Shown here piece by piece: positions 40,435 to 56,085 of a DNA stretch of 64,000 nt. Every line of letters begins with the position of its first letter. The first letter of the stretch is position 1. A program made the translations under genes and the position numbers. Location of the stretch: NCBI RefSeq assembly GCF_003171715.1, contig NZ_QGHL01000005.1:124001-188000 (forward strand). Reading direction: 5' to 3'. The stretch comes from Novosphingobium meiothermophilum. GTDB lineage: Bacteria > Pseudomonadota > Alphaproteobacteria > Sphingomonadales > Sphingomonadaceae. The notes under the pieces are model-generated. The model ran no database searches. It saw only the letters and a program-made list of their open reading frames with translations, and was not told the origin of the DNA.

Positions 40435-41679
40435 TCATGAACTGCCGCGCAGCCAGCGCAGCGTCGAGACTTCCTGCATCAGGGCGTCCTGATCCACCCT
40501 TGCGCGCCGGGCAGCAAGATAGGCGCGCCCCCGCTGCACCAGCCAGACAGGATAGGCCAGCCAGCGCAAGGGATTGTCACCGCTCACGCGCATCATGCCC
40601 GCAAGGATCAGCGGGGTGGGGGTGACGGCCGCCCGCAGCGCCGCCTTCCAGCCGGGCGCGCGCCCCTTTCGCATGATGAGCCCGCGCATCATGAAAGCAT
40701 GTTCGAACTGGCTTTCATCGCGCAGCATGGCGGCGCGGCTGGCCGCAAGGTGCGCGGCAAGATCGGGCGCGGGATCGCGCAGGGCCGGGGGCACCCAGCT
40801 TGCGCCGTAGGACAGCGCAAGCATCGCGATCAGCCGCAATGCGCGCTCCAGTCCCATCTGCCTTGCCTGATCGATAAGCACCTCCCAGTCGACCGGACCC
40901 TTCATGGCCGCAAAATGCAGGTCCGCCAGCGTGATCGGACCATTCTCGAACAGGTGATGCAGCGTGGCGTGTTCCACCAGATGCAGCAGGTTGGCATGCA
41001 TCGACGGAACCCGCACCGCCGTTCCCGCCACCACGATCTCCTCGGCATGCTCATGGACCATGCGCACCAGTTGCGGTTCCTCGGCCCAGTCGCGCGCATT
41101 CAGGCGGTGGTGGATTTCGAGCGAGATGCCGCGCTGCAAGTCGGTCAGTTCGGGAAGCTGATGGCCGAACTCGATCCCGTAGAACGCCGACCACTCGGCC
41201 ACTTCGTAGATCCCGCTTTCGATCATCGCCTGCTGCGCATGTTCGGCGCGGTCTGCTGGCACCAGCAGATCCAGATCGCGCAGCCTGCGCAGCTGCGGCT
41301 CCGGATAGTCGTTGAAGGCAAGCCGGGCGCCCTTCAGCGCAATCGGTGAAATCCCCTGGGCCTCCAGAAACCTGACAGCTTCGGACAGCCCGATCATGTG
41401 ACCAAAGCTCGACATGGCCGCGCTGCGCGCCTCATCGTCGAGCGCCTCGCGCGCCGGTGCGGGCACAAGCGTCTCTGCCCCGGCACGCCGCACGGCGCGG
41501 TCAACCAGCAGGCCCACCCGCTTCGAAATGGCCCGATCGACCAGTTGCGCCCAGCCTTGCGCGGCCAGAGCCTCGAAATCGGGGCCAAAGTCGGCGTCAG
41601 GCGCTGCGCACAGGCGCGCCAGCAGTGCGCCGATGCGATCCTGCTCGCTGCCATAGGCCATCGGATCACAGTCCTGCAC
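40435..41679 (-). CDS. Lasso-cluster nucleotidyltransferase family protein (PF14907-like)
   Basis: 414 residues of the nucleotidyltransferase family that recurs in lasso peptide clusters (pseudomycoidin PsmN is the characterised type, implicated in attaching hexose to a phosphorylated peptide; from memory). The core is PIALKGARLAFNDYPEPQLRRLRDLDLLVP: ALKG, then the paired metal-binding aspartates in RDLDLLV. It continues with EIHHRLN and HLVEHATLHHL. The C-terminal 130 residues are helical and basic. The start GTG at 41679 lies 3 bp past the ABC gene stop; ATG at 41661 is an alternative. It is the last gene of the minus-strand B2-ABC-NTase operon. Confidence 0.8.
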   Translation of the reverse strand: MQDCDPMAYGSEQDRIGALLARLCAAPDADFGPDFEALAAQGWAQLVDRAISKRVGLLVDRAVRRAGAETLVPAPAREALDDEARSAAMSSFGHMIGLSEAVRFLEAQGISPIALKGARLAFNDYPEPQLRRLRDLDLLVPADRAEHAQQAMIESGIYEVAEWSAFYGIEFGHQLPELTDLQRGISLEIHHRLNARDWAEEPQLVRMVHEHAEEIVVAGTAVRVPSMHANLLHLVEHATLHHLFENGPITLADLHFAAMKGPVDWEVLIDQARQMGLERALRLIAMLALSYGASWVPPALRDPAPDLAAHLAASRAAMLRDESQFEHAFMMRGLIMRKGRAPGWKAALRAAVTPTPLILAGMMRVSGDNPLRWLAYPVWLVQRGRAYLAARRARVDQDALMQEVSTLRWLRGSS

Positions 41680-41682
41680 GGA

Positions 41683-43428
41683 TCACCCCACATCCCCCGC
41701 GGCAGGCTGCGCCGCCGCTGGCGCTGGATCATCGAGAATCCTGCCATCGGCCAGCCGCACGTGATGATCGGCCACGGCTTCAAGCGCCCCGCCATGCGCA
41801 ATCACCAGAATGGTGCAACGATCGCGCAGGCGCCGGATCGTGCGCGCGATCGCCGCGTCGTTCTCGCGGTCGAGCGCGTTGGCGGCTTCGTCAAGAATCA
41901 GGAGTTCCGGCACATGAAGCATCGCGCGCGCAAGGATGAGGCGCTGCCGTTCCCCGCCGGAAAGCTGGTGGCCGTGTTCCCCGACCATCGTATCAAGCCC
42001 CTGCGGCAGGCGCGCAACGAAATCGGCCGATGCCTCGGCCAAGGCCTCATGGAGGGCGGCATCATCGGCATCAGGCCGCGCCCAAAGCAGGTTTTCGCGG
42101 ATCGTGCCGCTGAAGAGCACCGGCACCTGCTGCACGTAGGTCACGCGCGAACGCCATGCGCGCCGCTGCCCGAACGGCAAGGCCTGCCCGTCGATCACCA
42201 GTTCGCCGGCATCGGGCGTCAGTAGCCCGCCGATAACGTCGGCCAGCGTGCTCTTGCCCGCGCCGGACGGACCGCTGAGTGCGGTAATGCGATGAACCGG
42301 CAGGACAATGCTGACCCGGTCGAGAGCGGGCCGGTCGCGCCCCTCGAAACGCACGGTGACATCGCTAAGCGCAATTGCCCTGCGCACGGGTGGCAAGACG
42401 ACGGCCGCATCGGCATCGGGTTCACGCGCCGCTTCGGCGCGCGCGATCATCGCGCTCGCCGCCTCCACCGCGGGGCGCGCGTAGGCAATGTCCTGCATGC
42501 AGCCCTGAAGGGCAAGCAGCAGCGGCAGGGCGCGCGCGAACAGCACAATCATCGGCAGCATGGCCAGAACATCCACGTGCCAGACCTCCAGAGCCAGCCA
42601 GACCACGATCGCCAGCAGCACCGCATTGCCCACCTGCAACGCAAGCTGGCCAAGCTGGTTGTCGCGGTTATAGCGCCTTTCGGTATCGTGCAGGGCCGCC
42701 AGTTCGCGCTGGAGGCGCGCCTCGGTCTGCCGCTCGGCGCCGAAGCTCTTGATGACGCGCAGCGCGGCCAGCCCCTCGCTCAGCTCGGCGTGGATGCGGC
42801 TGTAAACATGGTCGAGCGCCTCTCCCAGACGCCGGGCACGTCGCCGCATCCCCCTGTAGGCAAGGATCACCAGTGCGCCGCAAACCAGGGCCCCGGCCGT
42901 GATCTGCGGCGAGATCGCAAGCGATGCCAGCCCCACCCCGGCAAGCGTGACAAGCGCGATTGCGCCGGACAGCACCCGCTCGACGCCATAGCCCACGCGG
43001 TCGATCGTGGTGATGAGCAGATTGGCGCTTTCGGTCTGTCGCATTCCCGAAAGAACGCGCCAGTCGCAATGCAGCAGGGCACGCCATGCCCTGAGGCGCA
43101 GCCCGTCGATCAGGCGGCGCTGCACCGCCAGCGCCACCAGCGTGCGGGCAAGGTTGAGCAGCCCCCGCAGCGCGATCAGCAGCACGAACACCACCAGCAT
43201 GATCGCCAGCGCCCGGCTGCCGCGCAGGGCATCGGGGCCGCCCAGATAGCCTGCCATGCCGGAAAGGATGCCGGGCAGCGCGGCGGTGCCGGTCATCACC
43301 GCGAGAATGGGCACGAGCAGGACAAGACCGATGCTCTCGGTCGCCGCCGAAGCCAGCGACAGGACCACCAGCAACACCGCGCGGCGCGGTTCGATCTGGC
43401 TGGCGACAATGGCGAAGGGGTGGTTCAG
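41683..43428 (-). CDS. Lasso peptide ABC exporter (TMD-NBD)
   Basis: 581-residue half-transporter that would export the mature peptide (D protein). The membrane domain occupies about residues 1-310 with six helices. The nucleotide-binding domain has Walker A SGPSGAGKSTL, Q-loop YVQQVPVLFSGTIRENLL, signature LSGGERQRLILARA and Walker B LLILDEAANALD; the H-loop is VIAHGG. No peptidase C39 domain, consistent with a separate B2 protease. The only in-frame ATG (43641) lies 216 bp inside the B2 gene. I therefore take CTG at 43428, which overlaps the B2 stop as CTGA and has AGAGGA seven bases upstream. Confidence 0.88.
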   Translation of the reverse strand: MNHPFAIVASQIEPRRAVLLVVLSLASAATESIGLVLLVPILAVMTGTAALPGILSGMAGYLGGPDALRGSRALAIMLVVFVLLIALRGLLNLARTLVALAVQRRLIDGLRLRAWRALLHCDWRVLSGMRQTESANLLITTIDRVGYGVERVLSGAIALVTLAGVGLASLAISPQITAGALVCGALVILAYRGMRRRARRLGEALDHVYSRIHAELSEGLAALRVIKSFGAERQTEARLQRELAALHDTERRYNRDNQLGQLALQVGNAVLLAIVVWLALEVWHVDVLAMLPMIVLFARALPLLLALQGCMQDIAYARPAVEAASAMIARAEAAREPDADAAVVLPPVRRAIALSDVTVRFEGRDRPALDRVSIVLPVHRITALSGPSGAGKSTLADVIGGLLTPDAGELVIDGQALPFGQRRAWRSRVTYVQQVPVLFSGTIRENLLWARPDADDAALHEALAEASADFVARLPQGLDTMVGEHGHQLSGGERQRLILARAMLHVPELLILDEAANALDRENDAAIARTIRRLRDRCTILVIAHGGALEAVADHHVRLADGRILDDPAPAAAQPAAGDVG

Positions 43429-44015
43429 CGCCCTGTCCTCTGCTTGTCGGAGCTTGTCCTCTGTTTTGCGGGAAAGGCGGGAAAGGCCGCAAAATCCGCA
43501 ATGTCCCCGCCCGTCACGATGGTTTCCCCCACGGCCAGCCAGGCATGGGCCAGCAGGCCATCGCCGTCCTCGCGCTTCATGCCGATGCTGATCCGCGCCG
43601 TGATGCCGTGACCGGCAAGCCAGCGACGCGCTGCAAGGCACTGCACCAGACAGTCCGACCGCCAGGGCACGCGCGGCGCGACAATGGCAATGGCACGGCT
43701 CACCCGTTCGATCACCGTCAGGGCATCGGCATCGGGCGCGGGCGCATCTGTGCCAGCGGGATCGGGGCGGTCAGGTATCTGCAATTGCTGCGCCGTGCGG
43801 CGGGCAAGCCTGATGCGGGCCAGTGCCAGTTCGCCAAGCGCGCGCAAGAGATCGCCGGACGCGCGCGGCCCGATTGTCCAGAGCCGGGGCAGCTCGCCCA
43901 TGGCCCGCGCCAGCGGCACCTTGACCTGCCGAGGCCTCTGCAATTTCGGGCGTGACGTTTCATCGGAGGCGGGCATCGGCATGGCAATCGCTGCAAAGTG
44001 GCCTTCTGCTGTCAT
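43425..44015 (-). CDS. Lasso peptide biosynthesis B2 protein (leader peptidase)
   Basis: 196 residues. The C-terminal half (about 98-175) is the transglutaminase-like cysteine protease fold of lasso B2 proteins: VPWRSDCLVQCLAARRWL with catalytic Cys122, then LLAHAWLAVGE with His157, and Asp171 near the end. It cuts the precursor leader when B1 presents it. The extended N-terminal part is helical and poorly conserved. The C-terminus ends in a small duplication (KQRTSSDKQRTGR), whose DNA supplies AGAGGA twice, the second serving the ABC gene. It is divergent from the cyclase gene. Confidence 0.85.
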   Translation of the reverse strand: MTAEGHFAAIAMPMPASDETSRPKLQRPRQVKVPLARAMGELPRLWTIGPRASGDLLRALGELALARIRLARRTAQQLQIPDRPDPAGTDAPAPDADALTVIERVSRAIAIVAPRVPWRSDCLVQCLAARRWLAGHGITARISIGMKREDGDGLLAHAWLAVGETIVTGGDIADFAAFPAFPAKQRTSSDKQRTGR

Positions 44016-44217
44016 TGGCCTTCACGGTCCGCGGCGCCATCCTCCGAAAAACCGCGCCGAACCTGAGCCTTGCTAATCCCGCCGGGGTAGTGAATCAATA
44101 GCCGTGCGATTTCCTTCATCAACGGTGCTGGTGCAAGCGGCCAGCACCTCGATGCGGGAGCGTGCATTTCTCGAAGGCCACGCGCCATTATTGCAGCATT
44201 TCGGAGTTCCCAGGAAA

Positions 44218-46101
44218 TTGAGCGGGTTTGCTGCAATCGTGCGTTTTGATGGCCAGCCGGTCGATCCTGCCGCGCTGGAGCGGATGACCGGCGCAATGGC
44301 CTATCGCGCCGAGGATGGCATCCGTCACCTGCACACGGCACCGATGGGCATGGGCCACTGCGCCTTTCGCACCACGCCGGAAGCGGCCGAGGCTGTCCAG
44401 CCGCTGCGCGACGCGGACGGGCGGCTGGCCATCGTCATGGACGGCTGGCTGGCCAACCCGGATGAACTGCGCGCCGAACTGCTGGCTAAAGGCGCACCCC
44501 CGCGCTGGCCGTCCGATGCCGAACTCGTGCTGCAGGCTTACCGCGTCTGGGGCGAGGACTGCGTCGATCGCATCGAGGGTGAATATGCCTGCGTGATCCA
44601 TGATGCGGCCTTGGCCCGCGTGTTCTGCGCCAAGGACCACGCCGGGATGCGCCCGCTGTTCCATCACTGGGACGGCCGCAGGCTGCTCGTGGCAAGCGAC
44701 GTGGCCGCCGTGCTTGCCGCGCAGGATTTTGCGCAAAGGCTGAACGAGGATCGCATGGCGCAATATCTCGCCAGCGATTTCCAGACGCTCGACGAAACCG
44801 TCTGGGCCGGAGTGATGCGCCTCCCGCTTGCCTCGTGCATGACAGTGGATGCAAGCGGGCCGAAAGTGCGGCAATACTGGTCGCTCTCATCGGGAGAACG
44901 CATCCGCTACCGGCGCGATGAAGACTATTTCGCCCATTACCGCGAAGTGCTGATGGACTGCGTGCGCCGCGCCTCGCGCAGCCAGCTTCCCATCGCCTGC
45001 GAGGTCAGCGGCGGGCACGATTCCTCCGCCATTTTCGCGCTGGCACGCCGCCTGAAGGAAGCCGGGCAGTTGCAGGCACCCGATGCGCTGGGGTTCACCT
45101 ACAGAGGCATACCCGGCACCATATCGGACGAGATCGCCTATGCCCGCGATGTCGGGCGCTTCCTCGGCGTGCCCATCCATGAAGCCGAGCCGACCCTCCC
45201 GGACATATCCTGGTTCATCAACCAGATCTCCCGCGACCGGGATATTCCTTTATTCCCCAATGGTCAGTCTGCCAGCGCCCAGATGGCACTGATTCGCACG
45301 CATGGCTGCCGCGTGGTGCTCGATGGCGAAGGTGGCGACGAGTTCGTCGGCGCGAGCGACCATTTCATTCACGCCGCCCTGCGCGATGGCCAGTGGGGCC
45401 TGCTTGCGCGCGAACTGCGCATCAAGGCCCGCAAGCATGGTGCGCGTCATGCAGCGCAGCGCCTGTTCCGATTCGGTCTGCGCCAGTTCCTGCCTGCCCC
45501 GCTGAACACGCTGGTGCGCGCCTGGCGCGGCTACCAGCCCGCATCGCAGCATGGCACGCTCGAAGGGCGCGACTGGCTGGCGCCAGCGGTGCATGATCGT
45601 CTTGCCAGCCGTCAGGAAACGCTATGGCGGGAGGATACCATCTGGCGGATGCGCGATCCCTGGCGTCGCCGCCTGTGGCGCGAACTCAACGATCCTTTCT
45701 TCGAGGTCATGCGCGACAATGGCGCAAGGCTTTCGGCGCACCTTGGGGTGGAACTGCGCTCGCCGATGTACACGCGGCGCTTCATCGCCTTCATCGCGGC
45801 CATGCCGCCCACGCTCACGATTCGCGAAGGCGAAGGCAAATACATCCACCTCAAAGCGCTGGAGCACGATCTTCCCCGCTCGGTGCTTGACCGACGCGAC
45901 AAGTGCGATTTCGGCTTCACGTTCGAGCACCAGTTGCAGCGCCTTGCACCGCTGTTTCAGCAGACCATACCCGATGCGGCGCCCGCAGAAATAGACGCCG
46001 AAGGGTTGGCGCGGCTCTATCTAAAGTTCCTGAATGACGGCTCTTATAAGTGGGAGCTTTGGAACCTTTTCGGATGGTTTCACTTGCGCCAGCAAGCATA
46101 G
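44218..46101 (+). CDS. Lasso peptide cyclase, asparagine-synthetase-like (C protein)
   Basis: Adenylates the side-chain acid of the core and closes the macrolactam. The N-terminal Ntn-hydrolase-like domain (about 1-190) begins SGFAAIVRFDG; the glutaminase Cys2 is replaced by Ser, so it cannot use glutamine. The ATP-pyrophosphatase domain has CEVSGGHDSSAIFALA (SGGxDSS P-loop) and LDGEGGDEFVG. The frame is open from 44104, but only the TTG at 44218 places the protein start at the family position; it gives 627 residues. The next gene downstream is the precursor, after 522 bp. Confidence 0.87.
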   Translation: MSGFAAIVRFDGQPVDPAALERMTGAMAYRAEDGIRHLHTAPMGMGHCAFRTTPEAAEAVQPLRDADGRLAIVMDGWLANPDELRAELLAKGAPPRWPSDAELVLQAYRVWGEDCVDRIEGEYACVIHDAALARVFCAKDHAGMRPLFHHWDGRRLLVASDVAAVLAAQDFAQRLNEDRMAQYLASDFQTLDETVWAGVMRLPLASCMTVDASGPKVRQYWSLSSGERIRYRRDEDYFAHYREVLMDCVRRASRSQLPIACEVSGGHDSSAIFALARRLKEAGQLQAPDALGFTYRGIPGTISDEIAYARDVGRFLGVPIHEAEPTLPDISWFINQISRDRDIPLFPNGQSASAQMALIRTHGCRVVLDGEGGDEFVGASDHFIHAALRDGQWGLLARELRIKARKHGARHAAQRLFRFGLRQFLPAPLNTLVRAWRGYQPASQHGTLEGRDWLAPAVHDRLASRQETLWREDTIWRMRDPWRRRLWRELNDPFFEVMRDNGARLSAHLGVELRSPMYTRRFIAFIAAMPPTLTIREGEGKYIHLKALEHDLPRSVLDRRDKCDFGFTFEHQLQRLAPLFQQTIPDAAPAEIDAEGLARLYLKFLNDGSYKWELWNLFGWFHLRQQA

Positions 46102-46623
46102 TGCCGATCGACTTGGCTCTGCGCCGCGGCGCTGGCCCAGTCTTTCACAGTTTCCCGCGTTTTGATGCACGCGGACTGCGGTCCCGCAAAAACACCTTCG
46201 ACGCGCCGAGAAGCAAAAGCATTTCAGATACTTCGCATGGGCGAATCACTTCATGCTGCTGTTTCTCGCAGGCACGAATGCCGCGCGTGATTCCCAAAAT
46301 TAACTATTTTCAGCAACCAGATACTCACCCTCATGGCCTTGCACGTGCGTGCAACACCCCATGGGCCTGTGGTGAAAGATGCAAGGCAGTTGCGCCGAAA
46401 TCTGCAATTTTCGTCATGTTTTTCATGATTTTGCGGAAATTTCGTCGCGCTTGATAGCGCCGGAGCAGGAACTTGTGCAGCGCAAAAAGGTCTTGCTGCG
46501 CAGTTATTCCTCGTTTATTGCTCCATTTACGAGTTAATTTTTACCGCAGTAATTAACCTTCGTTAATCGGCTCGCTGATCAGACGTTGGGAAAATTCTTG
46601 CAGATCCTGATGGAGATCGAACT
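46102..46623 (+). promoter_or_regulatory. Long AT-rich leader/promoter region of the lasso precursor
   Basis: 522 bp without a supportable gene, distinctly AT-richer than the flanks toward its right end. It contains the palindrome ATTAAC-CTTC-GTTAAT at 46552-46567, which is also a TTAA-N6-TTAA pair (one base short of CtrA spacing), 57 bp before the precursor start, and a TTGCTG-N17-TATTGC promoter-like pair upstream of it. GGAG at 46612-46615 is the precursor ribosome site. No second precursor-like frame was found on either strand. Confidence 0.5.
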
Positions 46624-46764
46624 ATGGGTACCCAAACGCCAAACACCCGCACCACCACCCGCCGCGCTTACTCGCGCCCGACCCTGGTTGTTTTTGGTTC
46701 GGTCCGCGAATTGACCGGGGCAATGACAGGTATGGGCGCAGACATGATGGCGATGTTGGTCTAA
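46624..46764 (+). CDS. Lasso peptide precursor (A peptide), methionine-rich core
   Basis: 46 residues, below usual length cut-offs. The leader contains Tyr16-x-x-Pro19, Leu21, Gly25 and Thr31, matching the YxxPxLxxxGxxxxxT pattern bound by lasso B1 proteins. By the Thr(-2) rule cleavage falls after Gly32, giving the core AMTGMGADMMAMLV. Ala1 is acceptable as the ring amine (as in paeninodin). Asp8 is the only acid in the core, so the ring has 8 residues and the tail 6 (cutting after Thr31 would give a Gly1-Asp9 ring). Five of 14 core residues are Met. GGAG lies 8 bp before ATG. Neighbours supply every expected lasso enzyme. Confidence 0.82.
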   Translation: MGTQTPNTRTTTRRAYSRPTLVVFGSVRELTGAMTGMGADMMAMLV

Positions 46765-46815
46765 CCTGATTGACGGTGTTGGCTGTTTAATTGATTTTTC
46801 AGATAAAGGCTCGCT

Positions 46816-47940
46816 GTGGCCAACACGCTTTCCGAGCATCATGGCTATTTGGTTGATGCGCGTCGTACGAAGCTTTACAGGCTGGCGATAGGCAAACTAA
46901 ATGTTGACGGCGAAACCGTAGCTGACCTCGGCTGCGGTTTCGGTGTTCTGGGAATGATGTGCCTGCGCGCGGGCGCGAGCCACGTTTGGGGCATTGATGC
47001 CACGGACGCGACCGACATAGCCCGCGAGACAGCCGAGCGCAGCGGACTGGCTGACCGCTATACCTGCATCCGGGCCGAAACATTCCGCGCTGACTTGCCC
47101 GAACGGGTTGATGTTCTCATCTGCGATCATGTCGGCTATTTCGGCATTGATTACGGCATCCTCCACCTGATGGCCGATGCGCGAGAGCGCTTCCTGAAGC
47201 CCGGTGGGCGGATCATCCCCGAAAGGATCAATCTTTTTCTGGCCGGTGTGCGTTCCGACGCATGCCGTGAAAAGCTTGATCCGTGGGAAACGCCGGATAT
47301 TCCTGCCGACTACAATTGGCTGCGAAGTTATGCGGTCAATACAAAGCACGCAGTCGATCTCGTGCCAACCGACATCGCAACCGCGCCCGTCCCCGTGGCC
47401 GAACTTGTCTTGGGCGAAAACCACGGCGAATCGCTGGCTTTCAAGGCCACGCTTGCAATCGAGGAAGACGGCACGCTCGACGGCATAGCAGGCTGGTTTG
47501 ACTGTCACCTTGCAGCCGGCGTCAGGATGACCAACTCCCCGCTGGCGCGCGATGCCATTGGCCGCCACCAGATCTTTCTAGGCTTTGACAAGCCCCTGCC
47601 GGTGAAGGCGGGCGATGCTGTCGAGGTTTCGGTGCGCATCAACCATATCAACGGCATTCTTGCATGGACGGTGCGCGATCCGGCAACCGGCCGGTTGCAA
47701 CGCTATTCCAACTGGGCCGCAATGCCCATGTCCGCAGGTGCGCGCCTGAAGCCCGGCACGGCGCCACGTTCGCTCAATGACAAGGCACGCAACCTTGGCG
47801 TGGTGCTTGGCTATATCGATGGCGAGCGCAGCACCGACGAGATTGAGCAGGCGGTGCTGCGCGATCATCCCACGCTTTTGCCCAGCGCGCTTGAGATTTC
47901 CCGCTTCGTCAAGGACGTGCTGGCGGACTACGCCACATGA
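46816..47940 (+). CDS. PRMT-like SAM-dependent methyltransferase of the lasso cluster
   Basis: 374 residues. The Rossmann part has motif I VADLGCGFGVLG (35-46) and the acidic end of strand 2 in GIDATD. The layout (helix-rich start, Rossmann fold, then KPGGRIIPERINLFLAGV and a beta-barrel) is that of protein arginine methyltransferases. But the double-E loop is degenerate: CDHVGYFGIDYG (103-114) where PRMTs have two glutamates, so arginine may not be the target. The last 55 residues (GYIDGERSTDEIEQAVL) resemble the helical half of PqqD. The GTG start has AAAGG 6 bp upstream; it lies 51 bp after the precursor and overlaps the kinase gene by 4 bp. Confidence 0.8.
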   Translation: MANTLSEHHGYLVDARRTKLYRLAIGKLNVDGETVADLGCGFGVLGMMCLRAGASHVWGIDATDATDIARETAERSGLADRYTCIRAETFRADLPERVDVLICDHVGYFGIDYGILHLMADARERFLKPGGRIIPERINLFLAGVRSDACREKLDPWETPDIPADYNWLRSYAVNTKHAVDLVPTDIATAPVPVAELVLGENHGESLAFKATLAIEEDGTLDGIAGWFDCHLAAGVRMTNSPLARDAIGRHQIFLGFDKPLPVKAGDAVEVSVRINHINGILAWTVRDPATGRLQRYSNWAAMPMSAGARLKPGTAPRSLNDKARNLGVVLGYIDGERSTDEIEQAVLRDHPTLLPSALEISRFVKDVLADYAT

Positions 47941-48836
47941 CCTTCGATCTCGTGTGGCGTCCGGCGCGGGACATGCCGGCCCTGGCCACCGCGCCGTTCG
48001 ATGTCTGGCGCGAGGATGACGGCTCCGCCTCCACCGAGTTCCATCGCATCCCGGAAGGCTTCCTGCTGCGGTTTCTCGACGGCGGCGACTATGCAATCGA
48101 CCTTGCGTCACAGACCGTCACCTGCACGCCCCTGCCGGATGTCCCGGAAGAATATGTGCGCAACATATTCACCAACCAGGTCCAGCCGATGCTGTCGACC
48201 TATCTGGGCACGACCGTGCTTCACGCAAGCTGCGTGGTGATCGATGGCGGGGCCTATGGTTTTCTTGGTCGCAGCGGGCGCGGCAAATCGACCCTTGCCG
48301 CCGCCTTTGCCCGCAATGGCCACGCCTTCCTCACCGACGATGGCATGGTCCTCGATCGTAGCGAGGACACTTTGCGCATCCAGCCCTACCTGCCCTCGAT
48401 CCGCCTTCTGCCCGACAGCCAGGAAGCGCTGCTGGGCAAGGAGCAGTTGCCGGACTGCGAGGATGACTGGCCCGCCAAGGTGCGCGTGCCAGCGGATGAA
48501 CGCATCCCCCATTGCGTCACGCCTGCCCCCTTGCGCGCGATCTATGTGCTGGAAGAACCGGCAGCCGATGAGCCCGTCATCACCCCGCTTGCCGAGATCG
48601 AGACGATCTCGGCGCTGCTCCAGCATTCATTCCTGCTCGATTCGCACGACAGGCTGCGCGTGGCGAAACATTTCAGAACCATGGCCGAGCTTGCCCGTGC
48701 GATCCCGGTCTTTACGCTTGACTATCCGCGCAATTACGCCCGACTTCCCGGCGTGATCGCGGCAATCGCCGATCACGCGCGGACCATCGGCGCCAGAACA
48801 GAAGCCAGAAAAGAAGGAACCTTGCCATGCAACTGA
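47937..48836 (+). CDS. HPr-kinase-like lasso peptide kinase
   Basis: 299 residues related to HPr kinase/phosphorylase and to lasso kinases such as PadeK of the paeninodin cluster, which phosphorylates the C-terminal Ser of its precursor. LHASCVVIDGGAYGFLGRSG, then RGKSTLAAAFARNG gives the P-loop GRSGRGKST (111-119); His96 and the acids in LTDDG (132-136) fit the metal/phosphate site. The predicted core here ends in Val and has no Ser, so the substrate is unclear. ATGA overlap with the methyltransferase, 10-bp overlap with the PqqD-like gene: clearly one operon. Confidence 0.83.
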   Translation: MTFDLVWRPARDMPALATAPFDVWREDDGSASTEFHRIPEGFLLRFLDGGDYAIDLASQTVTCTPLPDVPEEYVRNIFTNQVQPMLSTYLGTTVLHASCVVIDGGAYGFLGRSGRGKSTLAAAFARNGHAFLTDDGMVLDRSEDTLRIQPYLPSIRLLPDSQEALLGKEQLPDCEDDWPAKVRVPADERIPHCVTPAPLRAIYVLEEPAADEPVITPLAEIETISALLQHSFLLDSHDRLRVAKHFRTMAELARAIPVFTLDYPRNYARLPGVIAAIADHARTIGARTEARKEGTLPCN

Positions 48837-49099
48837 CCGATGCCTTCACGCTTTCGGAAGATGTCGTGGCCCGTGAAGTGGGCGAGGAAACCATGCTGCT
48901 CGATCTGGCCAGCGGCACCTATTTCGGCCTCAATCCGGTGGGCGGGCGATTCTGGCAACTGCTGGAAGAAGGACGCAGCGCAGCAGAGGCGCGCGATTGC
49001 CTGCTGGAAGAGTTCGATGTCGACCCCACCACGCTTGATGCCGACCTTGGCGACCTGCTGGACCAGCTCGCACAGCGTGGCCTGATCGCGGCCGGGTGA
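48827..49099 (+). CDS. PqqD-like lasso B1 protein (RiPP recognition element)
   Basis: 90 residues with the PqqD/RRE fold: ETMLLDLASGTYFGLNPVGG, then FWQLLEEGRSAAEARDCLLE and the C-terminal DLGDLLDQLAQRGLI helix. B1 proteins bind the leader YxxP segment by strand addition and deliver the precursor to B2 and C. It is the last gene of the plus-strand cluster, overlapping the kinase gene by 10 bp; a separate promoter for katG follows. Confidence 0.87.
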   Translation: MQLTDAFTLSEDVVAREVGEETMLLDLASGTYFGLNPVGGRFWQLLEEGRSAAEARDCLLEEFDVDPTTLDADLGDLLDQLAQRGLIAAG

Positions 49100-49168: not shown

Positions 49169-49266
49169 TGTAATCAGGCAAACCCGTTGGCCTCATGCGG
49201 GGGCGTGACATATCCCTTTGATTGGCACCGCTTATCGGCGGAAGACAACAGGAGGAGAGCTGCCCC

Positions 49267-51498
49267 ATGACCTTCAGGAAAATCGCGCTGGCCGCACTGC
49301 TGGCCGCCGGATCGACACTCGCCCTTGCCGGACCCGCTCAGGCCGAACCTGCCACGATGGCAGCGGGCGGACAGCCCTCCGCCAAGGAATGGTGGCCCAA
49401 GACCGTCGATCTGAGCGCGCTGCGCCAGAACGAGGCGACTGCCGCCAATCCCTATGGCCCGGACTACAACTACGCCAAGGAGTTCGCCACGCTCGATCTC
49501 GATGCGGTGAAGGAGGACATCCGCAAGGTCCTCACCACCTCGCAGCCGTGGTGGCCGGCTGACTACGGCCACTACGGCCCGTTCTTCATCCGCATGGCCT
49601 GGCACAGCGCGGGCACCTATCGCACCGGCGACGGGCGCGGTGGTTCGGATGGCGGCGAAATGCGCTTCGAGCCGCTCAATTCCTGGCCCGACAACGTCAG
49701 CCTCGACAAGGCCCGCCGCCTCGTCTGGCCGATCAAGCAGAAGTATGGCCGCAAGCTCTCGTGGGGTGATCTGATGATCCTTGCCGGGAACGTCGCCATG
49801 GAGGACATGGGCTTCAAGACGCTCGGCTTTGCGGGGGGGCGCATTGATGCCTGGCAGCCCGATCTGGTGTTCTGGGGACCGGAAACCAAGCTGCTGGACG
49901 ACAAGCGCCGCGACGAGAAGGGCAACCTCAAGGGACCGCTCGGCGCCACGCAGATGGGTCTTATCTACGTGAACCCCGAAGGCCCCAACGGCAATCCCGA
50001 TCCGCTGGCCGCCGCCGCCGACATCCGCCGCGCCTTTGGTGCGATGGCCATGAACGACGAGGAAACCGCAGCGCTCATCGCGGGCGGGCACACGTTCGGC
50101 AAGGCCCACGGCGCGCACAAGCCGGAAGAGTGCGTCGGCGCCGATCCGGGCGAGGCCACGATCGAGCAGCAGGGCCTTGGCTGGGCCAACAAGTGCGGCA
50201 AGGGCAACGCCGAAGATACTGTTTCCAGCGGGCTTGAGGGCGCCTGGTCGGCCAATCCGATTGCCTTCACCACCCAGTATCTCGACAACCTCTATGGTTT
50301 CGAATGGGTCAAGACCAAGAGCCCGGCTGGCGCAACCCAGTGGATCCCCAAGGATCCTGCCGCCGCCAACCTCGTGCCCGATGCGCACCGTCCGGATGTG
50401 CGTCACGCACCGATCATGTTCACCACCGACATCGCGCTGCGTGAAGATCCCGGCTTCCGCAAGATCACGCAGGCCTGGCGCAAGAACCCGCAGGCCTTTG
50501 CCGATGCCTTTGCCCGCGCATGGTTCAAGCTGACCCACCGCGACATGGGGCCGCAGGCACGTTATCTCGGCAAGGACGTGCCGAAGGTGACGATGACCTG
50601 GCAGGATCCGCTGCCCGTGGCGACCTATGCGCCGGTCGATGCCGCAGATATCGCCTCGCTCAAGGGCAGCATCCTGTCTTCGGGCCTGACCACGGCGGAA
50701 CTGGTGCGCACGGCATGGGCCTCGGCATCCTCGTTCCGCGCCACCGACATGCGCGGCGGCGCAAACGGTGCGCGCTTGCGGCTGGCCCCGCAAAAGGACT
50801 GGGCAGTGAACAACCCGGCCGAAGTCGCCAAGGTTACGGCGAAGCTCGATGCCATCCGCACTGCCTTCAACAAGCAGGCCAAGGGCGGCAAGCAGGTGAG
50901 CCTTGCGGACCTGATCGTGCTGGGCGGCAATGCCGCGATCGAGCAGGCCGCCAGAGCCGCCGGACATGACGTGACCGTGCCGTTCACGCCGGGCCGTGTC
51001 GACGCCACGCAGGCGCAGACCGATGTCGAATCATTCAACCACCTCGAACCCAAGGCAGACGGCTTCCGCAATTACCATTCGGCAGCATCCTACTATGCCC
51101 CGATCGAGGCCCTGATCGACAAGGCCGACATGCTGAACCTGACCGTGCCGGAAATGACCGTGCTGGTCGGCGGGATGCGCGCGCTGGGCGCCAACGCGGG
51201 CGATTCGAAGGCGGGCGTGCTTACCAGCCGCCCCGGAACGCTCAGCAACGACTTCTTCGTCAACCTGCTGTCGATGGACAACGTGTGGGCGAAATCGGCA
51301 ACGCCTGGCCTCTATGAAGGCAAGGACCGCGCAACCGGTGCGATGAAGTGGACGGCAACCCCGGTCGATCTCGTCTTCGGTTCGAACTCGGAACTGCGCG
51401 CCGTGTCGGAAGTCTATGCCTCGGACGATGCGAAGGACAAGTTCGTGGCCGACTTCATCGCGGCCTGGAACAAGGTGATGAACGCCGACCGCTTCTGA
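49267..51498 (+). CDS. katG: Catalase-peroxidase with signal peptide
   Basis: Bifunctional heme catalase-peroxidase, 743 residues. An N-terminal signal peptide ([24 protein letters not shown]) makes it a periplasmic form. Distal heme residues Arg-Trp-His are in [11 protein letters not shown]; the proximal His is in [10 protein letters not shown]. The Met-Tyr-Trp adduct needed for catalase activity is available: the Trp above, Tyr in [11 protein letters not shown] and Met in MAMNDEE. The inactive C-terminal duplicate domain is complete. ATG 49267 has AGGAGG 11 bp upstream. It follows the lasso cluster on the same strand but has its own promoter and terminator. Confidence 0.96.
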
Positions 51499-51525
51499 GG
51501 AGCCATCGGCACCACCGGCAAAAGG

Positions 51526-51559
51526 GGCGGCGGCGGGATCATCCCGCCGCCGCCTTTTT
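51526..51559 (+). terminator. Strong intrinsic terminator of katG
   Basis: A perfect 13-bp stem GGCGGCGGCGGGA/TCCCGCCGCCGCC with a 3-nt loop, then TTTTT. It sits 27 bp after the katG stop and directly abuts the end of the convergent transporter gene. Confidence 0.95.
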
Positions 51560-51561
51560 GC

Positions 51562-52548
51562 TCATGCGCCTTCGCGGTCGGGCGCAGTTGCGCCGAGGCG
51601 GGGGGCGATCACCGCGCAGGCCATCAGCTGCAACTGGTGAAAGACCATGATCGGCAGCAGCACGATGCCCACCGATGCCGCCGGAAAGAGCACACCTGCC
51701 ATCGGCACGCCCGTTGCAAGGCTCTTCTTCGATCCGCAGAACAGCAGCACGATGGCCTCAGCGCGAGAAAAGCCCAGTCTGCGTCCCAGCCACCACGTCA
51801 GGCCCAGAACGATGGCCAGAAGCACCGCGCACAAGGCCACGAGCACAAGCAGACTGATCGGCGCCACCTTCTGCCACAGCCCTTCCACGATCGCGGCACC
51901 GAACGCAGCATAGACCACCAGCAGGATCGATCCACGATCCACCTTGCCCAGCCATGCCTTGTGCCGTGCCACAAAATCGCCGATCCACGGGCGCAGAAAG
52001 TGCCCGGCAAGGAAGGGCAGGAGCAGTTGCAGCAGGATGGTCTGCGCCGCGCCCCACGAAAAGCCCCCCATCGTTCCGCCCATCAGCAGCGCGACCAGCG
52101 CGGGCGTCAGGAAGATCCCGGCAAGGTTGGAGAACGATGCAGCACATACCGCAGCTGCCACATCGCCGCGCGCAATGGCGGTGAACGCAATCGAGGACTG
52201 CACCGTGGATGGCAGCAGCGTGAGGAACAGCATCCCGGCGGCAAATTCGCCCGGCAGAAACGGTAGTGCGCCGAACGCGAGGCCCAGCAGCGGAAACAGC
52301 GCGAAGGTCGTCAGCAGGACCGCCAGATGCAGGTGCCACTTGCGCGCACCCGCCACGATCGCCTCGCGCGAGAGCCGCGCTCCGTGCAGGAAGAACAGCA
52401 GCACGATGCCCGCATCGGCAAGCCCGGCCACCACCGGCGCCCAGCCCCCGCGTGCGGGCAGGACGGTCGCCAGCGCCACGGTGGCCATCAGCAAGAGCAG
52501 GAAAGGGTCAAGAAGGGCGGAGACGCGCCGGATCATGAGATCAGCCAT
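51562..52548 (-). CDS. Bile acid:sodium symporter family (SBF-like) transporter
   Basis: 328 residues, about ten hydrophobic helices in the SBF-like/YfeH pattern: DAGIVLLFFLHGARLSREAI, LLPSTVQSSIAFTAIARGD, SNLAGIFLTPALVALLMGG and the C-terminal FCGSKKSLATGVPMA. The substrate is unknown; characterised eukaryotic relatives affect calcium and bacterial ones take up organic anions. The ATG at 52548 begins MADLMIRRV; the longer frame to 52695 crosses the tRNA remnant and is rejected. It is the last chromosomal gene before the integrative element. Confidence 0.85.
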   Translation of the reverse strand: MADLMIRRVSALLDPFLLLLMATVALATVLPARGGWAPVVAGLADAGIVLLFFLHGARLSREAIVAGARKWHLHLAVLLTTFALFPLLGLAFGALPFLPGEFAAGMLFLTLLPSTVQSSIAFTAIARGDVAAAVCAASFSNLAGIFLTPALVALLMGGTMGGFSWGAAQTILLQLLLPFLAGHFLRPWIGDFVARHKAWLGKVDRGSILLVVYAAFGAAIVEGLWQKVAPISLLVLVALCAVLLAIVLGLTWWLGRRLGFSRAEAIVLLFCGSKKSLATGVPMAGVLFPAASVGIVLLPIMVFHQLQLMACAVIAPRLGATAPDREGA

Positions 52549-52612
52549 TTGCCTTTGCGATGCGCGGGAAAAACACTGCCGCAAGAAGGGCAGCAATGCC
52601 CCGTCCGGCGAG

Positions 52613-52660
52613 TGGCGCACCCGACAGGATTCGAACCTGTGGCCTTTGCCTTCGGAGGGC
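52613..52660 (-). pseudogene. 3' fragment of tRNA-Arg(CCG), left attachment site
   Basis: On the minus strand: GCC, anticodon loop CTCCGAA (anticodon CCG), GGC, variable loop, T-arm ACAGG-TTCGAAT-CCTGT, acceptor strand CGGGTGC, discriminator G and CCA. Similarity to a tRNA stops inside the anticodon stem; the 5' half is missing and unrelated AT-rich sequence begins. This is the displaced 3' end left by an integrase that rebuilds the tRNA at the other junction. Confidence 0.85.
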
Positions 52661-52665
52661 TTCCA

Positions 52666-52687
52666 GATTCCATATCTATATGGAATC
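52666..52687. repeat. Perfect 10-bp palindrome beside the attachment site
   Basis: GATTCCATAT-CT-ATATGGAATC begins 5 bp beyond the tRNA fragment. Two related direct repeats (TGTGAACT near 52714 and 52764) and a second inverted repeat CACCGG/CCGGTG at 52778-52794 follow. These look like integrase arm or directionality-factor sites. Confidence 0.5.
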
Positions 52688-52832
52688 ATTGGCATTTTCC
52701 TTAACGTCTTTTTGTGAACTTTGACGGATTTCTGCGGTTTTTGATGGAACCTTTCAGACGTTCTGTGAACTCATGTGCACCGGAATTGCCGGTGGCTCAT
52801 GATGTATCTCAAATGGCCACCACTGGGTAGCG

Positions 52833-53039
52833 TCATTTATCTACAGGCTGCAGCTCGGCAGGTCGATTTGCGCTCGGCACCCGCAGTTCCAGCGGGAAAG
52901 CCTGGTCAGCAACGATCCTGTGAAACAACAACCGCACTGCATCAGAAGTCGACAGGCCCATCGCGCTCAGCGCTTCTATCGCCTGCGCTTTCAGTTCAGC
53001 ATCCAATCGGACATGCAGCATCGAAGTGTGGGTTGCCAT
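52833..53039 (-). CDS. RelB/DinJ-family antitoxin, apparently orphan
   Basis: 68 residues: MLHVRLDAELKAQAIEALSA followed by MGLSTSDAVRLLFHRIV, the ribbon-helix-helix pattern of RelB/DinJ, with a short C-terminal tail (LELRVPSANRP) that would cover a toxin. RelE/YafQ-type toxin genes normally follow on the same strand, but between its stop and the attachment site there is only about 170 bp of non-coding sequence. Either the toxin was lost or the protein acts alone as a repressor. Confidence 0.75.
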   Translation of the reverse strand: MATHTSMLHVRLDAELKAQAIEALSAMGLSTSDAVRLLFHRIVADQAFPLELRVPSANRPAELQPVDK

Positions 53040-53249
53040 CTCGGTCTCCTGATCATCTATCTATAGCCGATACTGCCCGATTGCGGAACAGGGCTACGGT
53101 AGATCGGTTCGGTGTTGCCGCAATCCAGCGCCTCAAGTGTGATGGTCTGGCCGACTGTCCCCCGCTGCTCGGGTCCCGCCGATCGAGACATAGTCGTTGC
53201 GTTTATTTCGAATATTCGATATGCAGTTGGTACCCTGCGGAGAGAAACC

Positions 53250-53708
53250 ATGACATTGCCAGCGAGCGCCTTGCCTTTCGGCAACAGGCTTCCATCGGCC
53301 GACGATAGGCAGATTGCCAATCAGCTGCGTCGTATTCTGGCAGCTCAGAAGGCTGGCGAGGCAACGCTGCGCGTGCCTGATCCCGAAACAAAAAGGCCGC
53401 TGGAGATCACTCTGACACCGGCCGTGTCCGATCTGTTCCTGGAGCTGCTGCGTCACATCGGCAGTGGTGACGCTGTCACCCTGGTACCGATTCAGCAAAT
53501 GCTTACGACGCAGCAGGCCGCTGACCTTCTCAACGTATCACGCCCCTATTTGATCAAGCTGATCGAAAGGGGGGACATCCCACACAGCACTGTGGGACGC
53601 CACCGCCGCCTCAAGGCTGAGGATGTGTTTGCCTACAAAGTAGCTCGTGACAAGGCGCGCTCTGACGCGCTGGACGAATTGGTCGCCAACGACGCGGACC
53701 TTTACTGA
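53250..53708 (+). CDS. Excisionase-type HTH protein, likely antitoxin of the PIN pair
   Basis: 152 residues. The C-terminal half has a MerR/excisionase-like winged HTH: MLTTQQAADLLNVSRPYLIK, then LIERGDIPHSTVGRHRRLKAEDVFAYK. The N-terminal half (RILAAQKAGEATLRVPDPET) is the strand-rich part common to antitoxins of this class. It starts with ATG 53250 after AGAGAAA; a longer frame from 53112 lacks conservation signs. The PIN-domain gene begins 12 bp later, so the two are a toxin-antitoxin operon. Confidence 0.78.
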   Translation: MTLPASALPFGNRLPSADDRQIANQLRRILAAQKAGEATLRVPDPETKRPLEITLTPAVSDLFLELLRHIGSGDAVTLVPIQQMLTTQQAADLLNVSRPYLIKLIERGDIPHSTVGRHRRLKAEDVFAYKVARDKARSDALDELVANDADLY

Positions 53709-53720
53709 CCGCTGACGGGG

Positions 53721-54311
53721 ATGTTCGCTAACCGCTACACTGCGCTGGTTGACGCATGCTCGCTGGTAAGCGCGCCGCGCCGTGACTTGCTCCTGAGCCT
53801 TGCAGAGGCCGAATTCTTCAGAGTTCGCTGGTCCGCTCGTATTCTCGATGAGACGAAGGCGGCGCTGCAGAAAATTCTTGCAGAGCGAGGCTTTGAAGAA
53901 ACAGTCGTCAGAGCTGGTCGCATTATCGGCGCGATGGAGAGCGCCTTTCCTGAGGCGTTGGTGAACCCTTGTGGGGAGCCCCTAGACCTGACCATACGAT
54001 TGCCAGATCCGAATGATGAGCATGTGATCAAAGCCGCAGTACAAACGCAGGCTCAGGCGATCGTCACCGAGAACATTCGAGACTTTCCGTCGGACATTCT
54101 GGCGCCCATGGGCATCGAGGCACGGACTGCCGATGATTTCATCGCCGACACAATCGAGCTTGATGAAGGCAGGGCCGTGGCCGCGATTAGAAAACTGCGC
54201 CTGCGGATGCAACGTCCCGAAATGTCGGCCGAAGCTTACCTTCGGTCTTTGGAGGCCCACGGGCTTCTCGTTACGGCGTCCGTCCTGAGCCCCCACATCG
54301 ACTCGATCTGA
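53721..54311 (+). CDS. PIN-domain ribonuclease toxin
   Basis: 196 residues. The PIN-type metal site is formed by Asp11 in ALVDACSL, Glu44 in ARILDETKAAL, and acids in LPDPNDEHVI (96-100) and ENIRDFP (Asp121). The last 60 residues are a helical extension seen in this PIN subgroup. As a toxin it would cleave RNA when not bound by the HTH partner 12 bp upstream. Convergent with the integrase gene, 47 bp apart. Confidence 0.8.
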   Translation: MFANRYTALVDACSLVSAPRRDLLLSLAEAEFFRVRWSARILDETKAALQKILAERGFEETVVRAGRIIGAMESAFPEALVNPCGEPLDLTIRLPDPNDEHVIKAAVQTQAQAIVTENIRDFPSDILAPMGIEARTADDFIADTIELDEGRAVAAIRKLRLRMQRPEMSAEAYLRSLEAHGLLVTASVLSPHIDSI

Positions 54312-54358
54312 CCCACAAATTCTACCCATTTTTGACCTGCTCGCGGGTGGACGACACC

Positions 54359-55432
54359 TCAGGCGATCTGCAAGGCCAATGCCTGAAGATCGCTGTGGTC
54401 AGCGTGGGTGTAGACCCGATCCTGTGTCTCGGCGGTCATGGCCAGGAATGCGTCGACCTGGTGGCTGTGCATCCCCATGTTCCGCAGCTCCGTGACCCTC
54501 GTGTGGCGAAGCGTGTGCGGGGTGACATCCTTGAAGCCGCATCGCTCAACCGTGGCACGAAAGCCCTTCACGACCGAATTGACGCGTCGCGTGTGGTCGA
54601 GCTTCTGGTGGAACACGAACTCGGGAACGGTCTCGTAGGCTTCGTACCGCTGCAAAAGATAGGCTCGCAGTGGCGGTGCCATCGGTGTTACCGCGCGCGG
54701 CTTGTGGTCGACGATCAGTTCACCGCGATCGGGCAGACGGTAGTCAATCACGTTACGGTCGAAATCGATGTTCGACCAACGCAGGTCCATGATCGCGCCG
54801 CTGCGCGCGCCGGTGTAGTAGGCGATCATCAGAAACAGCTGGAGTGGCTCGGCAGCGCGATATTCCTTGGCTGCCTCGGCGAACAGCTGATCGAACTCGT
54901 GCCGCTTCAGCCAGCGCTTCCGCGGTGCTCCATCGCGTGGAAGCTTCGGGAAAACGATGGCGTGCACCTTGTGGTTGACGGCCGCCGCCTTGACGGCAGC
55001 CCTGAGGTCGCTCAGCTCACGTCGGATTGTCGCGCGCGATCGACCGGGCTTCTTGGCGCTCCGGACGTTCGCCTTCTCGTAGTCCAGCACGGCGTCAGGA
55101 GTAATCGCATCGAGACACGCATCCTTCCAGAACTCGAGAATGTGCTGCATCGACGAGAAGAACCTGTCTCCGCGACCAGTTTTTGAAAGGCGCGCGTGAT
55201 GGGCATCGAGAACGTCTGCGATCTTGACCCGATAGGGTGGCAACGCCCGGCTGCTCTTCGATAGGCGCCGATCCCTCAGGAATTCCTCGAGGACCTCCTG
55301 CGCTTCTTCGCTGTCTCGAGTGTTTGTTGATACGTCCTTCTGCTGGCCGGTGGCGGGGTCGATGTAGCGGACGTAGAAATTGGGCTTACCGCTCCGGCGG
55401 ACGAGTCTGGGGCCGATGGATTGTCTTGGCAC
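54359..55432 (-). CDS. Tyrosine recombinase (integrase) of the element
   Basis: 357 residues: an N-terminal arm/core-binding part (about 1-165) and a catalytic domain with Arg210 (YYTGARSGAIMDL), HTLRH (306-310) and the nucleophile Tyr341 in RVYTHAD. The second box-II His/Trp position is not obvious (FLAMTAETQDRVY). It would catalyse recombination at tRNA-Arg. Its first 157 bp overlap, in another frame, the end of an HTH gene on the same strand. The integrase lies 1.7 kb from the attachment site, behind the toxin-antitoxin genes. Confidence 0.9.
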   Translation of the reverse strand: MPRQSIGPRLVRRSGKPNFYVRYIDPATGQQKDVSTNTRDSEEAQEVLEEFLRDRRLSKSSRALPPYRVKIADVLDAHHARLSKTGRGDRFFSSMQHILEFWKDACLDAITPDAVLDYEKANVRSAKKPGRSRATIRRELSDLRAAVKAAAVNHKVHAIVFPKLPRDGAPRKRWLKRHEFDQLFAEAAKEYRAAEPLQLFLMIAYYTGARSGAIMDLRWSNIDFDRNVIDYRLPDRGELIVDHKPRAVTPMAPPLRAYLLQRYEAYETVPEFVFHQKLDHTRRVNSVVKGFRATVERCGFKDVTPHTLRHTRVTELRNMGMHSHQVDAFLAMTAETQDRVYTHADHSDLQALALQIA

Positions 55433-55629
55433 GGCGGCACCTCGAAGGTCTCACAAAATTCGACAATAGCATCCGATGGCAACAAGATCAGGCCACCTGC
55501 ACGAACGTAGCGCAGCATGCGCGCCTTGATCATGCGACGAATTCGTCCTTCTGGCCATCCTGACTGCTCTGCCAGTTCTTTGGGGCTCAACATGCTTTTG
55601 CCTGATGGCGGCTTTCTTGTCGTAGACAT
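55276..55629 (-). CDS. Small HTH (excisionase/AlpA-like) protein overlapping the integrase
   Basis: 117 residues; MLSPKELAEQSGWPEGRIRR, then MIKARMLRYVRAGGLILLPS is a MerR-like DNA-binding domain of the excisionase type. The tail (about 70-117) is Ser/Pro-rich and ends in basic residues (AKKRRRSSRNS). The tail is encoded in the stretch shared with the integrase start, which could mean that only the first part is functional. It probably acts as directionality factor or integrase regulator. Confidence 0.65.
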   Translation of the reverse strand: MSTTRKPPSGKSMLSPKELAEQSGWPEGRIRRMIKARMLRYVRAGGLILLPSDAIVEFCETFEVPPCQDNPSAPDSSAGAVSPISTSATSTPPPASRRTYQQTLETAKKRRRSSRNS

Positions 55630-56085
55630 GATGCAGATCCAACCTCCGTCATCGAAGCGTGGGTGTTGGTTCTGGTGTATTGTCAGGAGACACGGGCCGG
55701 AAGCTTTGGCTCAAGTGAGTGCCGAATTTTGGCGACTTTTTGCGATTCCTGCAGCGTTTTCGCGTTCGGATCCCGCCTTCCCGATCTGCGTGGTCATGAA
55801 TCCAGAACCAGGTGGTTATGAATTTCGAACCAGGTGGTATCAAAAATCAGACCACCCTGGCTCAGATTCAATACCACCCCTCAGCGAATCAGTAGGTTTG
55901 CCATGGGCGCTCTTGGCAAAGGCGAACCACTCACAAGCGAAACCGTTCTTGCAGTGTGGCGCTATCAGTTATCCTCTGGCTGAGGCCGACATCCGACCCC
56001 TCCTTGCAGATTGAGGTTATGGGGCGTGACACAGTGCTACTGCTGTCTTAGATATTGGAAATCGCCAGCAATTCAGGGGCATTGC
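55630..56085. other. AT-richer intergenic region with nested repeats
   Basis: 456 bp without a supportable gene between the HTH gene and the restriction operon. GAACCAGGTGGT occurs at 55805-55816 and 55827-55838 (22-bp period), with a matching inverted ACCACCCTGG at 55851-55860 and ATACCACC just beyond. TGTC-AGGA-GACA near 55680 is another small palindrome. The pattern could be the eroded end of an insertion sequence or an operator array for the operon that starts at 56086. Confidence 0.5.

Follow-up and report, generated by a model that had tools for sequence, protein, structure and literature searches.

What does a methyltransferase with the fold of a protein arginine methyltransferase (PRMT) do in a lasso peptide pathway? 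The question is raised by a complete split-B lasso cluster at positions 40435-49099 of a 64-kb stretch of the Novosphingobium meiothermophilum genome (64,000 nucleotides of contig NZ_QGHL01000005.1), the whole of which we call the window. Among its eight genes are a methionine-rich precursor and, 51 nt downstream, the methyltransferase (MT):

46624-46764, plus strand: precursor (lasso leader model NF033521, 21.9 vs a cut-off of 19 bits)
46624-46719, plus strand: leader part of the precursor, 32 amino acids, ending YSRPTLVVFGSVRELTG, with Thr at -2 (NF033521; similar leaders in relatives)
46720-46764, plus strand: core part, AMTGMGADMMAMLV, and stop codon, read from the sequence; five Met among 14 residues
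46816-47940, plus strand: MT, PRMT-fold methyltransferase (generic methyltransferase models; PRMT_C, 30.4 vs 27 bits)

In related clusters MT and core methionine come and go together, which suggests that MT methylates methionine. We think there is about an even chance that the pathway is functional and that MT acts on core methionines, most likely converting them to the sulfonium S-methylmethionine.

The precursor, 46 residues in all, carries a YxxP motif (YSRP) in its leader and Thr at -2 (ELTG). By the lasso rule, leader cleavage would follow Thr(-2)-Gly(-1). Because of this Thr and of the Asp at core position 8, within the span of positions 7-9 in which lasso cores carry Asp or Glu, we predict an eight-residue ring closed between Ala1 and Asp8 and a six-residue tail, AMTGMGAD-MMAMLV.

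Methyltransferase and core methionine in related clusters

Sister clusters were sought through the HPr-kinase-like protein (K) encoded just after MT. It matched in 134 of 397 family genomes at E 1e-6 and, in three genera, in 21 of 40, 40 of 114 and 13 of 195 genomes at E 1e-25. At E 1e-20, a phylum-wide search with the L045 kinase matched five of 398 genomes; all five, the window's own genome being one, belong to its family, and no new relatives came to light. We fetched 120 regions, found their genes with profiles and read the precursors. Of 97 loci tabulated, 84 were used, and 76 of these belong to clade I. Ten of the rows dropped were repeats of the same genomes (L126, L133, L159, L177, L196, L197, L199, L201, L202 and L205), L183 had a stop in the leader and a split kinase (its core also lacks Met), and the precursors of L182 and L169 were not found. 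The precursor pattern required YxxP, an [LIVM][TM] pair and an acidic residue at core position 8-10, so we draw no conclusions from these three features in relatives; it placed no demand on core Met or Arg. L051 and L091 were added by hand.

Methionine was present in the core tail of 50 of the 51 clade I clusters with intact MT and in one of the 25 without (24 with no MT and one with a deleted MT). Met anywhere in the core occurred in 51/51 vs 3/25, with means of 3.27 and 0.16 per core. Lys and Arg followed the opposite course, being found in 19 of 51 cores with intact MT vs all 25 without, with means of 0.51 and 2.48 per core. When all 20 residues were scanned, Met in the tail ranked first (p = 1.6e-17; Fisher's test, shared descent ignored), and Arg showed the strongest opposite trend (ring, 3/51 vs 20/25, p = 6.6e-11; tail, 11/51 vs 22/25, p = 3.9e-8; descent likewise ignored). 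Distant kinase clusters without MT had no Met in any of ten recognisable cores.

Two comparisons illustrate the exchange. In L154, MT is an open frame (L154:4835-5680) from which model positions 101-190, the ICDHVGYFG loop among them, have been deleted in frame; the core of this cluster, GSGGTRGDGQLGQTRL, has no Met and has Arg. A swap in place is seen between two related clusters, GSGT-RFRD-GAVADSRF without MT (L088) vs GSGT-LMMD-GTITMVRI with MT (L161).

S-methylmethionine is a fixed cation, and its formation would explain both the exchange with Arg/Lys and the dispensability of a pair of glutamates in the enzyme, described below. That a PRMT-fold enzyme has become a peptide methionine S-methyltransferase, that ring and tail carry cationic S-methylmethionine, and that lineages swap to Arg/Lys when the enzyme is lost, is a tentative proposal whose chances we put a little short of even. 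In a bolder extension, the sulfonium may then serve as a leaving group for further ring closure. To our knowledge, peptide Met S-methylation would be the first such modification in lasso peptides or in ribosomally synthesized and post-translationally modified peptides (RiPPs).

MT might instead methylate another group, such as the C-terminal carboxylate, a ring Asp or Asn, the backbone or a phosphate, with tail Met being co-selected, for example for tail recognition or packing. For lasso peptides, the available portions of the sources record C-terminal methyl esters, formed by LasF or StspM, and aspartate methylation of the PIMT type, which leads to aspartimide (PMC9266682, PMC13352647, PMC11285071). 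In 51 of the 52 clade I loci with an MT open reading frame (ORF), the MT gene immediately precedes K, a pairing that could mean that both enzymes act on one site. However, cores of clusters lacking MT also have a ring Asp/Glu and a C terminus, which do not track MT as core Met does, and the Pfam matches of the window MT, listed to a limit of E 1, include no protein isoaspartyl methyltransferase (PIMT) family. We consider methylation of another group unlikely, though a serious contender.

The Met-rich tail could also be a soft-metal (copper) ligand or a redox-sensitive element, with MT tuning or capping some of the thioethers or acting elsewhere. Dense Met runs resemble Met-rich copper sites, and such runs occur in the window tail (MMAMLV) and in the L172 core, which contains 12 Met. 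A metal or redox role leaves unexplained why Met is absent where MT is absent or deleted and why Arg/Lys stand there instead; moreover, katG, which adjoins the window cluster, was found at none of 83 relative loci in the fetched stretches. We regard such a role as improbable.

Two cores stand out in other respects. That of L172 (L172:7561-7767) has repeated GMG-type runs and, at 34 residues, is the longest in the set. L148 (961-1363) has two MT-less precursors whose cores contain Cys and whose position -1 is also Cys (LTC), so that a disulfide-bonded lasso is possible.

To take descent into account, we used a quick tree of the cyclase, K and the leader-recognition protein B1, covering 81 of the 84 rows and supported by the Shimodaira-Hasegawa-like approximate likelihood ratio test (SH-aLRT) only; L040 forms a long branch. 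On this tree MT changes nine times and tail Met ten times. Seven independent contrasts on supported branches gave, on average, 6.0 concordant, 0.1 opposed and 0.9 with no difference (median p = 0.031).

Several observations weigh against methionine as the target. The tree-aware association of MT with tail Met is barely significant, and the Arg/Lys contrast, taken by itself, falls short of significance on this tree (average 3.6 of 7 pairs, median p = 0.125). Shared descent inflates the Fisher values: a single clade accounts for 15 of the 25 MT-less rows, and the same scan gives p = 1.6e-8 for ring Phe, a residue that is not expected to play a part. Leader Met tends weakly in the same direction as core Met (11/51 vs 1/25, p = 0.09). 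Individual clusters also depart from the pattern: L149 has an intact catalytic MT and Met in the ring only, L155 has no MT and two tail Met, L180 and L184 have no MT and one ring Met each, and L090, of clade II, has MT and a core without Met. Finally, we know of no PRMT-fold enzyme that methylates a thioether.

Because MT is carried by seven of eight clade II rows and by the basal clade I rows, we infer that its loss is a likelier direction of change than its gain, between which tree counts do not distinguish.

Fold, active site and distribution of the methyltransferase

The best PDB matches of MT are PRMTs, as found in a profile search with 20 MTs (6cu3, E 4.6e-38). The AlphaFold2 model of the window MT (mean predicted local distance difference test score, pLDDT, 89.1) superposes on PRMT1 (1or8) with Z 31.8 and a root-mean-square deviation of 2.4 over 294 residues. 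MT thus shares the Rossmann and beta-barrel fold of PRMT1, CARM1 and PRMT6, but differs from them in its tie to lasso clusters and in the positions of the double-E and THW loops.

In PRMTs, the two Glu of the double-E loop and the THW loop bind the guanidinium group. The double-E loop aligns with CDHVGYFGFDYG in the window MT, where the first Glu is replaced by Asp (D104) and the second by Tyr (Y113). Of the 52 clade I MTs, 50 have this pair, D and then Y, and the other two are gapped here. Clade II MTs have Asp at the first position and E, Q or G at the second (4, 2 and 1 of 7, respectively). Among 20 paralogue rows, in which a single gene appears both as L019 and as L093, 19 have Glu at each position. 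The THW loop is not kept, the aligned window stretch being IGRHQ. MT thus has the fold of an arginine methyltransferase but not its arginine-binding residues. A preliminary description of the window had named it a PRMT-like methyltransferase, which is right for the fold and misleading for the arginine-binding residues.

Could MT nevertheless methylate arginine, either in the leader or in some other protein? Its fold would suit this role, and the window leader contains arginines. Both double-E glutamates are replaced, however, and the cores of MT clusters are depleted in Arg rather than enriched. We judge arginine methylation very unlikely and continue with methionine as the preferred target.

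A separate idea, that a PqqD-like RiPP recognition element (RRE) is fused to the MT C terminus, was not borne out. The last 50 residues look PqqD-like by eye, but when the profile of 53 MT C-termini was aligned with that of 83 B1 proteins the probability was only 7.8% (P 0.0045), and the tail is missing from some MTs (L149, L151, L157, L174 and L181).

The preliminary description spoke of a cluster that adds a PRMT-like methyltransferase. This addition is not confined to the window: MT is a widespread module of lasso pathways, with relatives in the lasso clusters of various proteobacterial groups and, going by record titles, of a cyanobacterium. Scanning the genome collection by pattern, an approach limited to close relatives, returned 22 loci, from which we set aside L055 as a short match (100 residues at 34%). 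The remaining 21 loci (42-72% identity), one of which (L036) lies at a contig end, have K in 21, the cyclase in 20 and B1 in 20. Their hosts, as given in the record titles, include Novosphingobium, Erythrobacter and relatives, Polaromonas, Caenimonas, Contendobacter, Competibacter and a Cyanobium; single host names are unsure because many are metagenome bins.

A search of the family gave an MT match in 37 of 397 genomes at E 1e-8. Ten are close (43-100% identity, the window's own included), two at 26-27% lie in lasso clusters and constitute clade II, and in 25 others the best match is a paralogue at 26-38%. Eighteen of these 25 paralogues, viewed with 1.5 kb of flank, have no cyclase, K or B1. 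Among the remaining paralogue genomes, G155 (L117) has lasso genes approximately 5 kb away. PRMT-like paralogues at L093:3895-4980 and L117:5429-6490 have an intact double-E loop and HPr-kinase-like genes nearby.

Gene content, kinase and proposed pathway

The other six genes of the window cluster are the following:

40435-41679, minus strand: nucleotidyltransferase (NTase), PF14907 (E 5.7e-43)
41683-43641, minus strand: ABC exporter, given as ORF limits; ABC_tran (5.2e-29) and ABC_membrane (9.8e-15)
43425-44015, minus strand: B2 leader peptidase, transglutaminase-like; PF13471 (6.4e-22) and NF033537 (6.1e-18, above cut-off)
44104-46101, plus strand: lasso cyclase, asparagine-synthetase-like, start codon uncertain; PF00733 (4.2e-37)
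47937-48836, plus strand: K, HPr-kinase-like peptide kinase; HprK-related models (best E 8.9e-8)
48827-49099, plus strand: B1 leader-recognition protein, PqqD-like RRE; PF05402 (PqqD; 2.6e-19)

The preliminary description had proposed a complete lasso cluster, with the NTase, exporter and B2 on the minus strand and the cyclase, precursor, MT, K and B1 on the plus strand, and all eight genes are present with their families matched. The four hidden Markov models that it named for B2, B1, the cyclase and the NTase (PF13471, PF05402, PF00733 and PF14907) all matched, so that neither B1 nor B2 failed. For the HPr kinase the outcome was divided: HprK-related models match K, but every match is below its curated cut-off (HPr_kinase_C, 19.7 vs 33.3 bits), and we claim homology only. 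The cyclase matches the lasso cyclase model NF033535 at 8.2e-93, yet under the curated cut-off of that model. The true start of the exporter is probably internal, near 43425, because the first GTG of the ORF falls within B2. The genes had been called mostly overlapping, which is true of MT/K (4 nt) and K/B1 (10 nt) but not of the precursor, which is separated by 522 nt from the cyclase and by the 51-nt gap from MT.

Homologues of B1, B2 and the cyclase are adjacent in the window, as expected of a lasso cluster, and the B2 of this cluster is the sole B2 match in the genome. Since the same gene set recurs in relatives, its occurrence in the window is not due to chance. The nearest relatives are in Novosphingobium, in agreement with the earlier view of a proteobacterial split-B cluster. 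Also as described, the classic partners are missing. No lasso isopeptidase reached the family cut-off in the genome (best, 31.8 vs 400 bits; weak matches of that kind also occur in 11 of 14 control genomes), and inspection by eye of the larger ORFs between 30 and 60 kb of the window showed no TonB receptor, no genome-wide search having been made.

The window K contains the H..G..G.GKS..DD motif. The strict pattern was found at 25 of 84 loci, GKS alone at eight and neither at 51; as GKT/TED variants occur and some of the best ORFs start wrongly, we claim the motif for the window only. Of the 76 clade I cores, 71 have Ser or Thr at ring position 2 or 3, and five end in one of these residues. All ten recognisable cores among 34 distant kinase loci without MT end in Ser (L092, L095, L097, L100, L103, L104, L122, L123, L125 and L142); one further ORF at L122, taken as spurious, is outside this count.

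In the available part of the source, BsfK of Bradymonas sediminis phosphorylates Ser3 of the core, helped by B1 (PMC10368454). The ring Ser/Thr pattern of clade I fits this site, and Thr3 is therefore the likelier phosphorylation site in the window core; by analogy, K probably acts on ring Ser/Thr. The bsf cluster (BsfA/B1/B2/C/D/K/N), as far as the available text of that paper describes it, has the same split B1/B2, cyclase, exporter, kinase and NTase as the window, and the window K carries the H-G-G-G-K-S-DD motif of the bsf kinase. No methyltransferase is among the bsf genes named there, whereas the window has MT, and the penultimate leader residue is Ile in bsf and Thr in the window (PMC10368454).

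The preliminary description had placed the cluster in the paeninodin/pseudomycoidin group, an assignment that should be corrected. The HPr-kinase-like K, the PF14907 NTase and the split B agree with it, but the window core ends in Val and so lacks the C-terminal Ser on which, according to the accessible portion of PMC9266682, the paeninodin and pseudomycoidin kinases act. The same portion describes no methyltransferase for these peptides. The kinase is shared with both, and the NTase with pseudomycoidin, whose PsmN acts on the phosphorylated peptide (PMC9266682); by analogy the window NTase is likely to attach a nucleotidyl or hexose moiety to the peptide in its phosphorylated form.

Other lasso pathways have methyltransferases of their own. 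Lassomycin-type pathways share methylation dependent on S-adenosylmethionine (SAM) with the window, but LasF and StspM are C-terminal carboxyl O-methyltransferases, whereas MT has a PRMT fold and tracks core Met. Cellulonodin-2 and lihuanodin likewise have a dedicated methyltransferase, which in the material available on them is a PIMT homologue acting on ring Asp of the threaded peptide, unlike MT. Among the matches listed in the open-access literature, we found neither a PRMT-type lasso methyltransferase nor Met methylation in a lasso peptide, which bears out, for the portions of that literature available, the earlier remark that such an enzyme is unfamiliar from characterised lasso pathways.

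From these comparisons we propose the following pathway for the window cluster. B1 would hold the leader while K phosphorylates a ring Ser/Thr (Thr3) and MT uses SAM on the core methionines, most likely at sulfur to give the S-methylmethionine sulfonium. B2 would then cut after ELTG, and the cyclase would join Ala1 to Asp8 around the tail. The NTase would decorate the phosphate, and the ABC protein would export the product. The fixed positive charge of the methylated Met would stand in for the Arg/Lys of MT-less sister clusters. The gene content, the PRMT fold, the exchange of the arginine-binding loop and the covariation of MT with core Met and against core Arg/Lys are computed results; sulfur as the target, the sequence of steps, the site of phosphorylation and the part played by the charge are proposals. 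For the predicted lasso we calculate a monoisotopic mass of 1410.584; one S-methyl sulfonium would make it a cation of 1425.607, two would place it at m/z 720.315, and a phosphate would add 79.966.

This pathway presupposes an active cluster. Alternatively, the cluster may be decaying or silent, with no modified lasso peptide made. Some relatives are broken or incomplete (L183, L154 and L169), and a consensus scan of 46050-46850 found no sigma-70-like promoter (0 vs 0.6 expected in shuffles). All eight frames in the window are open, however, and the chance of decay or silence seems to us very small.

If correct, S-methylation of core methionine would represent both a new lasso peptide chemistry, with a fixed sulfonium charge, and a new reaction for the PRMT fold. 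The relatives, one of them with a deletion in the active site, would then form a natural series of joint changes in enzyme and substrate. A Met-rich core together with this MT would offer a rule for genome mining, and the claim is directly testable with the 46-residue precursor and one enzyme.

S74-fused precursors and the surroundings of the cluster

In 20 of 76 clade I clusters, identified by pattern, the core is followed by a Peptidase_S74 domain of approximately 75 residues (16 with intact MT and four without):

S74-fused precursors: L041, L043, L044, L045, L047, L051, L052, L053, L054, L086, L128, L129, L146, L147, L151, L152, L153, L156, L203, L204

PF13884 (Peptidase_S74, an endosialidase-type intramolecular chaperone) scored above cut-off in all five tested. 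The best PDB sequence matches of the domain are the MYRF ICA (E 3e-4) and a phage long tail fibre (E 4e-4). The fold match is weak, with Z 4.3 for the MYRF ICA and then 2.7 for the intramolecular chaperone 3gud, and the model of the fused precursor has a pLDDT of 63 overall and of 61-85 by block over the domain.

In endosialidase, a Ser and a Lys of this domain cut the chain. An alignment of eight S74 domains has an invariant Lys five residues after the first Ser, which is Cys in one; we used this alignment because the pattern count (19) requires Lys at +5 and is uninformative on that residue. With this Ser/Lys pair, the C terminus of the core may be freed by self-cleavage, which by analogy would set the C terminus of S74-fused cores. 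The window precursor has no S74 domain, and no S74-fused lasso precursor was found among the matches listed in the open-access literature. In L052, two precursors lie in one cluster (8273-8500 and 8559-8975), one with S74 and one without, both with core Met.

Directly after B1, at 49222-51498 of the window, lies the catalase-peroxidase gene katG (named by eye), with a likely signal peptide. We rejected it as part of the cluster, given its absence from the relative loci, for which the fetched stretches differed in length. No tRNA marking an island end was found at 51000-56500. At 54359-60718 an integrase-like gene comes first, with DUF262-like and DNA methyltransferase-like genes after it (all named by eye); the group may be a defence island.

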